Below are positions 40,065 to 55,058 of a stretch of 64,000 bases of DNA, piece after piece. The first letter of the stretch is position 1; every line of letters begins with the position of its first letter. The stretch covers positions 3,809,001 through 3,873,000 of the forward strand of contig NZ_CP034783.1 in assembly GCF_006094435.1 (NCBI RefSeq), in the 5' to 3' direction. The notes beneath the pieces are model-generated. The model worked only from the letters and a program-made list of their open reading frames with translations. It was not told the DNA's origin and did not search any database. The position numbers were made by a program, and so were the translations under genes. The stretch comes from Pseudomonas sp. MPC6 (GTDB taxonomy: Bacteria > Pseudomonadota > Gammaproteobacteria > Pseudomonadales > Pseudomonadaceae).

Positions 40065-41117
40065 TCAGCGGACCAGGGAGGCTGCCGGAGCGACTACGTC
40101 GCCCAGCAGCACCACGGCCTGGTCGTCCAGGTAGATATCGCAATTGCGCAGCGGGATATCCAGGTGGCACGGGGTTTTACGCTTGCCACCCACCTCGGTG
40201 TTGGGGCCGGTCGAGAACAGGAAGTTGCCATAGAACGCCCGGGCATCCATGCACATGCCGTCGTTCTTGTCGTGCAGGCCCATGGCCGTCCATTGCGCGC
40301 GCGGCTGCAGGCCCCAGCCGATATGGGAGATGCCATACACCTCTGGATCTTTGAAGTAGGCCATGTATTCGCGCAAGTACTGCGCCTCGAAACCACCATG
40401 GATGCCGGTTATGAAGCCCTTCTCGATCTCCAGGGTGATGCGTTCGCGGCAGTAGTTCTTGAACGGCAGCACGATGTCACCGACATCCAGCACCAGCACA
40501 CCTTCAGCACTGTCTTCGTTGGGCCAGGTGAACAGGAAACCGCTGGGCCAGTGGTCCCAGCGCCCCGGTTCGTCGGCAAAACCATACTCGGTCACTGCCG
40601 GGTACTGGCCCAGCGGTGCGCGGAAATCACTGCCCGCCCCGGAGCGCACGGTCATCGACCGAGCGGCCTTGAGCATCTGCTCGGCGGCCAGTACTCGGGC
40701 CTTGTCCGCCTCGCTGGGCAGCATGCGCGCCAGCACTTCCGGTGGCTCCACCGCCAGCAGGATCCGCGTGCCGGTTTTCAGGATCTGCTCCTGCTCCGGA
40801 GAGTGGAGCAGCATCATGGTATCGATCACCAGGTCTGCCGCCTCCAGCGCCCGCTGGGCGGCCAGGTTGCCGGTCAACGCCGTGTCGCCGCAATAGGCCG
40901 TCATGTCGTTACCCATGGCCACCGGCGCATTGAACGACGGTAGCTCCACCGCATAGACCTTGGCCCCCAGGCGCTGCGCCGCCTCGGTCGCCGCCCGCAC
41001 GGTGCGCGGGTTGGAATAGTGACTTTTAAGCACGGCGACACTCTGGGTGGCGTCCACCCGCGAGAGTTTCAGCACGTGCTCGAACATTTGGACCAACTCT
41101 CCATCACTGACAGCCAT
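40065..41117 (-). CDS. nicX: 2,5-dihydroxypyridine 5,6-dioxygenase NicX
   Basis: This extradiol-type Fe(II) dioxygenase (350 residues, as in P. putida NicX) opens 2,5-dihydroxypyridine to N-formylmaleamate. The segments holding the known iron ligands His265, His318 and Asp320 are present as GISHIGWG and TPCHLDIPL. The N-terminus VQMFEHVLKLSRVDATQSVAVLK agrees with the P. putida protein as I remember it. The gene is divergent from nicCDEF with 312 bp between. In P. putida nicX belongs to the same transcription unit as nicC, so the arrangement differs here. Confidence 0.95.
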   Translation of the reverse strand: MAVSDGELVQMFEHVLKLSRVDATQSVAVLKSHYSNPRTVRAATEAAQRLGAKVYAVELPSFNAPVAMGNDMTAYCGDTALTGNLAAQRALEAADLVIDTMMLLHSPEQEQILKTGTRILLAVEPPEVLARMLPSEADKARVLAAEQMLKAARSMTVRSGAGSDFRAPLGQYPAVTEYGFADEPGRWDHWPSGFLFTWPNEDSAEGVLVLDVGDIVLPFKNYCRERITLEIEKGFITGIHGGFEAQYLREYMAYFKDPEVYGISHIGWGLQPRAQWTAMGLHDKNDGMCMDARAFYGNFLFSTGPNTEVGGKRKTPCHLDIPLRNCDIYLDDQAVVLLGDVVAPAASLVR

Positions 41118-41190
41118 CTCGCCTCTCCTGTTGTGGAAATAAACGCACCAAACAGTGCTAGCCGTTTCACCGCCGGCACCAATTTATGAT

Positions 41191-41388
41191 GTACACATCT
41201 CTTATTGCTCAATATGGATCAATTTATTCAATGGCACAAGCTATTCGAAATGGCGGAAACCACTGGCTAAACAACCGACACCGCACTGACAAAGACCTCT
41301 AAATAGCCAATCAAAAGATTGGAATCCAATTTTTCCTGAAAAGCCTTCACAAAACAAAAAAAGGATGCATACACTGTAAATGCATTCC
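41191..41388. promoter_or_regulatory. nicX-nicC intergenic control region with repeated TGYRYAC motif
   Basis: Two candidate operators are seen. On the minus strand toward nicX, GAGATGTGTAC (41191-41201) matches nine of eleven positions of AGGRTGYRYAC. On the plus strand toward nicC, AGGATGCATAC (41362-41372) lies inside the interrupted palindrome GGATGCAT-N9-ATGCATTCC ending at 41388, 42 bp before the nicC start. The same motif recurs near the Rieske, frmA and porin genes. Confidence 0.5.
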
Positions 41389-41429
41389 GATCCCACCCCT
41401 GGAGATCGGCTTTCGAGGAGATGAGCCTT

Positions 41430-42578
41430 ATGCCCGCAACAAAACGCATCGCTATCATCGGCGCCGGCCTGGGCGGCGCAGCCACTGCCACTTCACTTCA
41501 GCAGGCTGGTTTCGAGGTGAACGTATACGAACAGGCACGCGCCTTCTCACGACTGGGTGCCGGCATCCACATGGGCCCCAACGTGATGAAGATCTTCCGG
41601 CGCATGGGCATCGAAAAGCAGCTCGAAGCCATGGGCTCACACCCCGAGTTCTGGTTCAGCCGCGACGCCAGCGGCGAGTACCTGTCGCGCATCCCACTGG
41701 GTGAATTCGCCCGCAAGGAATACGACGCCGCCTACATCACGGTGCACCGCGGCGACCTGCACGCCCTGCAGATGTCCACGATCAAGCCCGGCAGCCTGCA
41801 TTTCGGTAAACACCTGGCCGCCATCGAGGAAACCGACAATGAGGTGCGCCTGCAATTTGCCGACGGCACCCACGCCCTGGCCGATATCGTCATCGGTGCC
41901 GACGGCATCAACTCACGGGTCCGCGAACACCTGCTGGGCGCAGAAGCGCCGACCTATAGCGGCTGGGTCGGCCACCGCGCCCTGATCAAAGCCAGCAACC
42001 TGGCCAAATACGACTTCAACTTCGAAGACTGCGTGAAGTGGTGGTCGGGCGACCGTCACCTGATGGTCTACTACACCACCGGCAAACGCGATGAGTACTA
42101 CTTCGTCAGCGGCGTGCCCCAGGCAGAGTGGGAAGGCGGCAACGCCAGCTTCATTCCCAGCTCCAAGGCTGAAATGTTCGACGCCTTCAAGGGCTACCAC
42201 CCCTCCGTGCAGGCTCTGATCGAAAACGCCGACGCCATCACCAAATGGCCCCTGCTCAATCGCCAACCACTGCCGTTGTGGAGCAAAGGCCGCATGGTAT
42301 TGCTGGGCGACGCCTGCCACCCGATGAAACCGCACATGGCTCAAGGCGCGGCCATGGCCATCGAAGACGGCGCCATGCTTGCACGCTGCCTGCAGGAAAC
42401 CGGCCTGGGCGACTACAAGACCGCATTCAAACTGTACGAAGCCAACCGCAAGGACCGGGCATCCAGGGTTCAGGCGACGTCCAATGCCAACACCTGGCTG
42501 CGCGCCCAGGAAGATCCGGCCTGGGTGTTTGGCTATGACGTTTACTCGCACCCGCTGAAGTCGGAATCAGCAGCATGA
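41430..42578 (+). CDS. nicC: 6-hydroxynicotinate 3-monooxygenase NicC
   Basis: This FAD monooxygenase (382 residues, equal to P. putida NicC) carries out decarboxylative hydroxylation of 6-hydroxynicotinate to 2,5-dihydroxypyridine with NADH and O2. The dinucleotide motif is [17 protein letters not shown], the second FAD motif [15 protein letters not shown], and [23 protein letters not shown] the third. The GAGGAG ribosome site ends 9 bp before the ATG at 41430 and directly abuts the ATG at 41421, so the former is the start. It begins a four-gene operon. Confidence 0.95.
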
Positions 42579-54229: not shown

Positions 54230-54283
54230 ACCTCGAGGAAACAGATCGCGTTCCAGGACGAGGAAAGGTCTGAGGGTCGATTC

Positions 54284-54333
54284 GGCCAGGTTTTTTTGAG
54301 CCTCACCCCTTGAGGCAGCAAAAAAGCCTGGCC
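54284..54333. repeat. Long inverted repeat with T/A-rich arms
   Basis: GGCCAGGTTTTTTTG and GCAAAAAAGCCTGGCC are near-perfect complements, enclosing a second stem GCCTCA / TGAGGC. The runs of T and A are inside the arms, so it is not a standard terminator. It lies between the permease and the isochorismatase-like gene and could act as an attenuator, an mRNA-stabilising hairpin or a remnant of an insertion. Confidence 0.6.
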
Positions 54334-54377
54334 ACTTCAACGTTTCTGAACAAGCGTCAACAGATCAGGATTCAACC

Positions 54378-55058
54378 ATGCATACGACTATTATCGATCC
54401 CGTCATCCGCGCCCGATATCAAGCACTGAAAGGGGGGCGGGAGTTTGCCTTCACCCGCATAGAAACTTATCGAACAGCGCTGCTCGTCATTGATATGCAA
54501 AATGGCTTTGTCGAGGAAGGCGCGCTCCTGGAGGTTCCGGCAGCCCGAGGCATCGTTGAAAATATCAATGCCTTGAGTGTCGCTTTACGACACGCGGGAG
54601 GGCTGAGTGTTTTCTTCAGGTTTACCACGACGTCGGCTGACGACTGGCCTGTCTATTTTCAGGACTTTCAGAACTCGGAATTTGCACAATCCGAGGTTCA
54701 GACTTTCCAGCATGGCTCACACGGCCACGCATTGATCCCTCAGCTGGATATCGGGCCGGACGATCTGGTCTTGGACAAGTCAAGATTCAGCGCTTTCACT
54801 CCGGGGGCTTCGGACGCGCTGGAGACACTCAAGAGACGAGGGATCGACACCCTTTTTATCTCGGGAACACTGTCGGACTGCTGCTGTGGAGCGACGGCTC
54901 GAGATGCCCAGCAATTGGGTTTCAAGGTTATTTTCATCGCTGACGCCAATGCCGCATTAAGCGATGCCGAACATAATTCGACGGTAAACGCTTTAGCGGC
55001 GTGGTTTGCCGATATCAGGACGACAGAACAGGCGCTGACACTCATTCAGGGTGACTGA
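54378..55058 (+). CDS. Isochorismatase-fold (cysteine hydrolase) amidase
   Basis: The 226-residue cysteine hydrolase has the Asp-Lys-Cys triad: LLVIDMQNGFVEE, LVLDKSRFSAF and GTLSDCCCGATARDA. Enzymes of this fold include nicotinamidase, N-carbamoylsarcosine amidase and maleamate amidase. It is a paralogue of NicF rather than a copy (different length and motif context). As the last gene of the island, just before the terminator and tRNA-Gly, it may remove an amide from the imported pyridine, giving the acid for the Rieske enzyme. Confidence 0.85.
   Translation: MHTTIIDPVIRARYQALKGGREFAFTRIETYRTALLVIDMQNGFVEEGALLEVPAARGIVENINALSVALRHAGGLSVFFRFTTTSADDWPVYFQDFQNSEFAQSEVQTFQHGSHGHALIPQLDIGPDDLVLDKSRFSAFTPGASDALETLKRRGIDTLFISGTLSDCCCGATARDAQQLGFKVIFIADANAALSDAEHNSTVNALAAWFADIRTTEQALTLIQGD

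Follow-up and report, generated by a model that had tools for sequence, protein, structure and literature searches.

The window, a stretch of 64,000 nucleotides of Pseudomonas sp. MPC6, carries the genes considered here at positions 40065 to 55058. All of the named genes are open reading frames without internal stops. The features are as follows (L131 is the canonical nic cluster used for comparison).

40065..41117, minus strand: NicX, 2,5-dihydroxypyridine 5,6-dioxygenase (721 bits to 7cn3)
41421..42578, plus strand: NicC, 6-hydroxynicotinate 3-monooxygenase (641 bits to 5eow)
42575..43384, plus strand: NicD, N-formylmaleamate deformylase, alpha/beta hydrolase (PF00561; 82% to L131 NicD)
43398..44150, plus strand: NicE, maleate isomerase (381 bits to maleate isomerase 4fq7)
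44161..44787, plus strand: NicF, maleamate amidohydrolase, isochorismatase-fold (PF00857; 90% to L131 NicF)
45223..46251, plus strand: Rieske non-heme iron oxygenase, VanA/DdmC-like, proposed N-demethylase (PF00355 and PF19112)
46248..47285, plus strand: xylose-isomerase-like TIM-barrel partner, homologue of the caffeine-cluster orf5-position gene
47330..48556, plus strand: ferredoxin reductase, HcaD/AndAa-like (PF07992/PF14759)
48519..48908, plus strand: 2Fe-2S ferredoxin (PF00111; likely true start the inner ATG at 48585, checked)
49155..49670, plus strand: MarR regulator, NicR/BpsR type, diverged effector pocket (TTG start uncertain)
49799..50908, minus strand: S-(hydroxymethyl)glutathione (formaldehyde) dehydrogenase (TIGR02818, 722 bits, cut-off 544)
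51897..52715, plus strand: Tsx-like outer-membrane channel, so named in the first-pass annotation (no family match)
52745..54229, plus strand: NCS1/cytosine-permease-like importer (weak match, NF008241, 35 bits, cut-off 326)
54378..55058, plus strand: isochorismatase-fold cysteine hydrolase, candidate amidase (PF00857, 132.6 bits)
55133..55208, minus strand: tRNA-Gly (gcc), bounding the foreign segment on its right

Lower nicotinate pathway and absence of canonical nicAB

The genes at 40065-44787 form a complete lower nicotinate core (nicX and nicCDEF), as the first-pass annotation had proposed; the matches to 7cn3, 5eow and 4fq7 and the PF00561 and PF00857 domains agree with this. NicC is 91% identical to the nearest Pseudomonas NicC found. 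The nicE frame opens at a TTG (43344), and its likely start is the ATG at 43398, which was checked. The window shares these five orthologues and their divergent arrangement with the P. putida-type pathway (nicABCDEFXR), but it has no nicA, nicB or nicR beside nicX, and a Rieske front end is attached after nicF.

NicC was present in 59 of 298 Pseudomonas genomes, and all 16 canonical nic clusters sampled from these 59 carried nicX-nicR-nicA-nicB. The absence of nicAB from the window, claimed earlier, was borne out and extends to the whole host: a genome-wide search with the NicB of a canonical cluster found no canonical nicAB near the cluster or elsewhere, and its seven matches were one cytochrome part (39%) and Mo-domain pieces (25-36%). 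With canonical nicAB missing, we rejected the reading of the cluster as a plain nicotinate locus. The host seems to have lost the nicotinate-starting enzyme and to have gained a probably demethylating gene set instead. Another host Mo-hydroxylase (C4:3.60 Mb) has a small subunit 51% identical to NicA and a large subunit 29% identical to NicB, and it might act on nicotinate.

Foreign segment

GC3 is host-like in the nic genes (0.79-0.82) and lower, at 0.49-0.67, across the nine genes from the Rieske oxygenase to the isochorismatase-fold hydrolase. This delimits a foreign segment of approximately 45.2-55.1 kb and indicates that the two halves probably have different origins in this genome. The word island, applied earlier to the entire cluster, therefore fits the right-hand 10 kb and not the nic genes. 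Conserved homology in relatives begins at the tRNA-Gly in 17 of 18 same-genus genomes, in a comparison whose query included no more than the final 159 cluster bases. Crude scans of the window found neither a second copy of the tRNA end nor tyrosine-integrase-like motifs; since the conservation merely begins at the tRNA, insertion there is consistent with the data and no more. In a simple word and palindrome scan of the cluster intergenic regions, no shared operator motif stood out.

Rieske oxygenase, TIM-barrel protein and caffeine clusters

The oxygenase has Rieske and VanA_C domains with their metal motifs and, together with its reductase and ferredoxin, forms the VanA/DdmC-like three-component system that had been predicted. 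Its closest solved relatives are O-demethylases, namely the guaiacol enzyme and dicamba O-demethylase (DdmC), the latter being the best by sequence (124 bits). The DdmC system has the same three-component layout; however, identity to DdmC is approximately 27% and the gene context is not alike.

The neighboring protein has the fold of the xylose-isomerase-like TIM barrel superfamily, matched nothing in Pfam or PDB sequence searches, and is only 9-15% identical to L-ribulose 3-epimerase, IolE and Art22, which are barrels of this kind. It is 40-43% identical to members in loci L148, L150, L188 and L189, with site residues in common, and corresponds, on the basis of position and flanks, to orf5, the gene called "unknown" in caffeine N-demethylase clusters, the sequences compared being those of the four loci. 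E144, D176 and E302 are conserved, and residue 228 is Gln where more distant members usually have His; a tentative mapping by motif suggests that these four positions may correspond to the acidic/His metal tetrad of the superfamily. All 48 Rieske- or caffeine-linked members have Gln228. The caffeine type in this count includes L190, an Acinetobacter plasmid with a TIM homologue in which a caffeine cluster is not evident; it was the third of the 3 plasmid records opened, out of 53 in which a TIM homologue was present.

The caffeine clusters (alx, ndmABCDE) and the window have in common Rieske oxygenase(s), the orf5-position TIM protein, a formaldehyde dehydrogenase and a nucleobase-type importer. 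They differ in that the window uses a ferredoxin and ferredoxin reductase in place of NdmD, has a gene set in which no GST was called, and is linked to nic genes. Its oxygenase is just 21-29% identical to the Ndm-type oxygenases of L188 and L189 and is not an NdmA/B/C ortholog. Methylxanthine was rejected as the window substrate on these two grounds, oxygenase divergence and nic linkage. The shared TIM partner favors an N-methyl heterocycle as the substrate of the Rieske set.

Uptake, hydrolase, formaldehyde and regulator genes

The glutathione-dependent formaldehyde dehydrogenase and the isochorismatase-fold hydrolase named in the first-pass annotation were both confirmed by their profile matches (TIGR02818 and PF00857); the Asp, Lys and Cys motifs of the hydrolase fall at positions 39, 133 and 168, and it has homologues in loci L020, L021 and L025. 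The names of the porin and importer stood in part. Homologues of both (56% for the Tsx-like protein, 76% for the NCS1-like protein) lie beside the Rieske and nic genes of Marinobacter L024, but the former had no family match in profile searches, Pfam included, and the latter had no Pfam match and fell below its cut-off.

The best solved relative of the MarR protein is BpsR (6pcp, 97 bits; next best other protein, 49), and it is 44% identical to canonical NicR. Its pocket reads T/T/R/N against Y/H/R/H, so that only the Arg is kept and the 6-hydroxynicotinate pocket seen in BpsR is absent. All four residues by which BpsR binds 6-hydroxynicotinate (PMC6837509) are retained in the MarR proteins of L017, L024 and L027. 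Despite the full pocket, nicB is missing from two of these genomes, Herminiimonas (L017) and Marinobacter (L024). A TetR gene lies within 3.5 kb of the Rieske-TIM pair in 30 of 40 genomes and is absent from TIM-only loci (tblastn, half the query, E 1e-15); the pair-linked TetR proteins share 32-45% identity with the TetR that accompanies canonical nicAB.

The Rieske-TIM pair in other genomes

We fetched 80 TIM loci: Rieske plus TIM occurs in 40 genomes, and 39 loci are TIM-only and come mostly from marine- and alphaproteobacterial-type MAGs. Genes of one or the other of two unrelated pathways that use up 6-hydroxynicotinate were present in 17 of the 40 Rieske-TIM loci and in 0 of the 39 TIM-only loci (Fisher 1.7e-6; tblastn matches at E 1e-20 with 35% identity or more across half the query). 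These and the TetR counts rest on tblastn because ORF calls were misframed in some high-GC loci (e.g. L021, L059 and L070). Nic genes accounted for 10 of the 40 genomes. In 7 others the pair adjoins 6-hydroxynicotinate reductase-like and enamidase genes (enamidase assigned by 387 bits to 2vun), a route different from that of the window, which we take to be the reductive one of Eubacterium barkeri and Azorhizobium.

At genome level, NicC (at least 57% identity) or enamidase (at least 80%) was found somewhere in 37 of the 38 Rieske-TIM genomes searched (all but L022 and L054); for comparison, NicC was present in 59 of 298 Pseudomonas genomes and enamidase in 30 of the 200 genomes of one family. 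The Rieske set is thus not one that occurs mostly apart from these pathways, even though nic genes proper share its locus in a minority. In one of the 37, G306, the NicC match is just a fragment that contains a stop.

Of the 11 nic-linked genomes, counting the host, 8 appear to lack nicB; the three with NicB are Variovorax, Acidovorax and Mangrovicoccus. In Mangrovicoccus a NicA-like gene adjoins the cluster, which would also fit nicotinate entry. A NicB-like protein (at least 49% identity over at least 500 residues) occurs somewhere in 28 of the 38 genomes, and a match at E 1e-60 in 32, so the Rieske-TIM module is no replacement for nicB in most carriers. In one Acinetobacter genome the NicB search yielded no candidate at first look. 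Genes for formaldehyde or formate dehydrogenase occur in 6 of the 40 Rieske-TIM loci, and also in the window and two of the TIM-only loci. The parts list of Marinobacter L024 is similar to that of the window.

Discussion

In our best reading, the genes at 45223-55058 came by horizontal transfer and act as a catabolic front end in place of NicAB: the Rieske oxygenase and the TIM protein would convert N-methyl-6-oxonicotinate to 6-hydroxynicotinate and formaldehyde; we consider this joint reading probable. Entry at 6-hydroxynicotinate is well supported by genomics, while N-methyl-6-oxonicotinate is the presumed substrate and the TIM protein may have a role in demethylation. A neutral or amphoteric N-methylated pyridone would enter via the channel and the NCS1-like importer, and an amide would be hydrolyzed to the acid by the isochorismatase-fold hydrolase. 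Served by its ferredoxin reductase and ferredoxin, and with the aid of the TIM protein, the oxygenase would then oxidize the N-methyl group, releasing 6-hydroxynicotinate and formaldehyde. Formaldehyde would pass to the glutathione-dependent dehydrogenase, and 6-hydroxynicotinate through NicC, NicX, NicD, NicF and NicE to fumarate, steps that are established for these families. The earlier proposal of a demethylating front end feeding this pathway was largely right in view of the recurrent linkage, the lack of nicAB and the caffeine-cluster TIM protein. We counted against it the few loci with a nearby formaldehyde or formate dehydrogenase, the O-demethylases nearest to the oxygenase, its low identity (21-29%) to Ndm-type enzymes, the altered MarR pocket, the NicB-like proteins of most carriers and of the three nic-linked genera, and the host Mo-hydroxylase. 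Because one module accompanies two unrelated 6-hydroxynicotinate pathways, the entry metabolite is directly testable.

N-methylpyridones are end products of mammalian nicotinamide disposal. The Acinetobacter baylyi trigonelline route (tgn genes) is a comparable catabolism of an N-methyl pyridine, with ring cleavage by a flavin system, and to our knowledge involves no Rieske or nic genes. If our reading is true, it provides a bacterial route for N-methylpyridone carboxylates. PMC12072460 describes N-methyl-2-pyridone-5-carboxamide as a terminal NAD catabolite in humans. The literature searched, which mostly excludes subscription journals and preprints, described no bacterial pathway for this compound and no Rieske/nic/trigonelline/N-methylpyridone route.

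It is also conceivable, but unlikely, that the oxygenase demethylates trigonelline (N-methylnicotinate) to nicotinate and that a second hydroxylase produces 6-hydroxynicotinate. Among natural N-methyl pyridines trigonelline is a common one, and both the NicB-like proteins of 28 of 38 carriers and the NicA-like gene of Mangrovicoccus would suit this route; however, eight nic-linked genomes have no canonical nicB, and the caffeine-type link suggests an N-methyl group in a ring with carbonyls. We give little credence to O-demethylation of 6-methoxynicotinate or a similar alkoxy pyridine to 6-hydroxynicotinate and formaldehyde, since the TIM partner is common to N-demethylase clusters and 6-methoxynicotinate is, as far as we know, not a common natural compound, even if DdmC and the guaiacol enzyme are the closest solved relatives. 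Direct 6-hydroxylation of nicotinate by the oxygenase as a NicAB analogue, with no methyl group involved, is similarly doubtful. Some Rieske enzymes hydroxylate N-heterocycles and this one occupies the place of the missing NicAB in eight nic-linked genomes, but the same TIM partner, the formaldehyde dehydrogenase of the window and other loci, and the NicB-like protein of most carriers, which would be redundant, argue against it. A chance neighborhood of the Rieske set and the nic core, to which the unequal GC3 of the two halves might point, was rejected as highly improbable on the recurrence of the linkage (17/40 versus 0/39), and the similar parts list of Marinobacter L024 also opposes it.

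Returning to N-demethylation, we tentatively suggest that the orf5-position TIM family might be a metal enzyme that completes the oxidative N-demethylation of N-methyl lactams, e.g. by releasing formaldehyde from an N-hydroxymethyl intermediate. It would then be an unrecognized second component common to N-demethylases that are unrelated in other respects (those for pyridones and methylxanthines, and perhaps systems based on Fe/2-oxoglutarate oxygenases), here opening nicotinate catabolism to N-methylpyridones without a nicotinate hydroxylase. As the family occurs with two Rieske N-demethylase types that are dissimilar, this would give the "unknown" caffeine-cluster gene a testable function. 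Among the 39 TIM-only loci, screened for an alternative partner, 11 have a PhyH-type cluster near the TIM gene (one member Pfam-checked), and two have a glutathione-dependent formaldehyde dehydrogenase.

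Gene content and origins of the cluster

The genome of Pseudomonas sp. MPC6 (the host; 7.2 Mb, 100% complete) carries in the window all of the genes listed by the first-pass annotation, each as an open frame. Three features are referred to throughout:

40065-44787, nic core (nicX and nicCDEF)
45223-55058, Rieske set of lower-GC genes
46248-47285, xylose-isomerase-like TIM-barrel protein (TIM protein), directly after the Rieske gene

NicX, NicC and NicE scored 721, 641 and 381 bits to solved enzymes. The Rieske oxygenase gene (PF00355 and PF19112) lies directly after nicF, and its top solved relative in a sequence search is dicamba O-demethylase. 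The 345-residue TIM protein had no match in Pfam and no meaningful match in a PDB sequence search. Ferredoxin reductase and ferredoxin genes follow, then a MarR regulator gene and one for a glutathione-dependent formaldehyde dehydrogenase, which is divergent (722 bits against a cut-off of 544). The last three genes encode a Tsx-like channel, an NCS1-like importer and an isochorismatase-fold hydrolase. Between the dehydrogenase and the Tsx-like gene are 988 bases without a clear gene (50909-51896), in which a short ORF (51430-51822) may be spurious or a remnant. At 29795-37984, genes for a GntR regulator, LivK/LivH-type and two ATPase ABC-transporter proteins, an N-carbamoyl/allantoate amidohydrolase-like enzyme and an amidase look like a separate cluster for nitrogen-compound utilisation, with normal GC.

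The annotation had proposed one island at 40065-55058. A foreign origin is indicated for about 45.2-55.1 kb, since GC3 is 0.49-0.67 in all nine genes, Rieske through isochorismatase, but the nic core is host-like (0.79-0.82; five flanking genes tested, 0.77-0.81). The foreign part has tRNA-Gly as its right-hand limit. When a boundary query containing just the final 159 bases of the cluster was compared with 18 same-genus relatives, homology in 17 of them began within a few bases of the tRNA 3' end and ran into pgsA. The window yielded neither a second copy of the tRNA end nor an integrase-like motif.

Linkage of the Rieske-TIM pair to 6-hydroxynicotinate genes

Named genomes were scanned with a TIM profile and the best 80 of 174 loci were used. 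Among these, tblastn placed Rieske and TIM genes in one locus (the pair) in 40 genomes (loci L043 and L021 are one genome); the two genes are adjacent in 24, separated by one gene (~1.3 kb) in 14 and by nearly 5 kb in 2. Still within the best 80 of 174, nic genes occur in 10 of the 40 pair loci (Herminiimonas, Variovorax ISL-3, Marinobacter, Acidovorax, Halopseudomonas, P. profundi, two Acinetobacter, Celeribacter and Mangrovicoccus) and reductive-route genes in 7. All seven of the latter encode a putative 6-hydroxynicotinate-reductase-like protein, which had no match in a family search; six encode an enamidase (387 bits to 2vun) and four a glutarate-type CoA transferase (517 bits against a curated cut-off of 750). 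The proposed association of the Rieske genes with 6-hydroxynicotinate catabolism is supported: consuming genes share the locus with the pair in 17/40 cases, a lower bound because loci end at 10 kb or at a contig end, versus 0/39 loci with TIM only (best 80 of 174; Fisher 1.7e-6).

The Marinobacter locus (L024) has most parts of the window (NicX, Rieske, TIM, MarR, NicFEDC, a second Rieske, ferredoxin, reductase, Tsx and NCS1); formaldehyde dehydrogenase and a second isochorismatase were not found in the fetched stretch. The dehydrogenase and isochorismatase of Variovorax L021 are 90% and 65% identical over the aligned part, and Paenalcaligenes L025 has Rieske, TIM, formaldehyde dehydrogenase, reductase, ferredoxin and isochorismatase consecutively. 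In Variovorax ISL-3 (L021/L043), one nic cluster lies between two Rieske-TIM pairs of unlike type.

NicC, enamidase and NicB were sought in 38 of the 40 pair genomes (from the best 80 of 174 TIM loci). NicC was present in 23 (E 1e-90) and enamidase in 21 (E 1e-70). At identities of at least 57% and at least 80%, each was found in 21 of 38, G306 having just a NicC piece with a stop, and one or the other in 37. The exception, G307 (L026), carries the reductase-like gene together with a NicC-like protein at 45%. Background rates were 59/298 genomes of the genus for NicC (E 1e-130) and 30/200 genomes of the family of G315 for enamidase, one of the 30 at only 41% identity. The TIM protein occurs in 5 of the 298, host included, the other four at 41-49% identity.

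Nicotinate hydroxylase

Nic regions were fetched from 16 of the 59 NicC-positive genomes; in every one of the 16, genes for a NicA-like protein and NicB (1170-1316 residues, three CxxCH motifs) adjoin nicX and a MarR gene. In one of them (L132, 5941-8750), nicF and nicE are each present twice. The absence of nicAB, noted earlier for the window, extends genome-wide as far as canonical NicB is concerned: a query from the nearest nic cluster (NicC 91%) retrieved just 25-39% pieces from the host (cytochrome part, 39%; Mo-domain pieces, 25-36%). The host may have an unorthodox hydroxylase, since the best of four compared among its five small Fe-S subunits is 51% identical to NicA.

In the available assemblies, seven of the 10 nic-linked genomes (8 of 11 with the host) gave either no NicB match or one below the threshold. 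Herminiimonas yielded a 36% cytochrome piece and nothing more, and a first look at one Acinetobacter genome gave no candidate. A NicB-like protein (at least 49% over at least 500 residues) is present in 28 of the 38 pair genomes, including the three remaining nic-linked genomes and most reductive-route genomes; in these carriers the module would serve as an additional entry rather than as a substitute.

Regulators

In 30 of 40 pair loci (best 80 of 174), a TetR gene is located no more than 3.5 kb from the pair; its product is 32-45% identical to the TetR next to nicB in the canonical cluster L131 (the NicS position). No such gene occurs in the 39 TIM-only loci.

The top solved relative of the window MarR is BpsR (97 bits; next protein 49), described in PMC6837509 as a repressor responsive to 6-hydroxynicotinate, with four ligand-binding residues. 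The MarRs of L017 (Herminiimonas), L024 and L027 retain all four; that of the window retains just the carboxylate-binding Arg (T/T/R/N). In six alphaproteobacterial loci, the MarRs next to Rieske show Y/Q/R and, where BpsR has the His that contacts the ring nitrogen, Gly or Val. Judged from these residues, 6-hydroxynicotinate would fit as inducer in the first three, and a changed effector would fit the window and alphaproteobacterial proteins. Among the MarRs of canonical clusters L131-L147 (15 from 16 clusters, that of L138 left out), Y, H and R of the BpsR pocket are invariant and the last His is present in 10. According to PMC6837509, the pocket is not conserved in P. putida NicR.

TIM family and proposed route

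By position and flanking homology, a TIM family member (L148, 9585-10661) occupies the "unknown" orf5 place of a caffeine N-demethylase cluster. In TIM-only loci L063, L065, L066, L074, L077 and L079-L084 (best 80 of 174), a PhyH-type (Fe/2-oxoglutarate) cluster gene, assigned by a Pfam check on one member, lies within 3.5 kb and the Rieske gene is missing. Residue 228 is His in 30 of 38 TIM proteins outside the Rieske and caffeine sets.

Entry at 6-hydroxynicotinate is well supported, by the two unrelated downstream routes and the absence of nicB from eight nic-linked genomes. Loss of the methyl group as formaldehyde is supported by the window dehydrogenase, the caffeine link, and formaldehyde/formate dehydrogenase genes in 6 of 40 pair loci (best 80 of 174): glutathione-type in L016, L021 and L025, glutathione-independent (754 bits) with a formate-dehydrogenase-like protein in L041 and L044, and the latter protein alone in L027. 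The caffeine link, the one line of evidence on this point, supports N- rather than O-demethylation. Together with the isochorismatase and NCS1 genes, this evidence suggests N-methyl-6-oxonicotinate or its amide as the substrate; any reaction given to the TIM protein would be speculation. No Rieske-fed nicotinate route was found in the open-access papers searched, PMC7866226 and PMC5746545 included; the cluster joins a known lower pathway to what would be a new front end.

Acinetobacter L041 and L044 combine Rieske-TIM, NicX, the glutathione-independent dehydrogenase and a molybdopterin formate-dehydrogenase-like protein with genes that, judged by eye, are molybdenum-cofactor-like.
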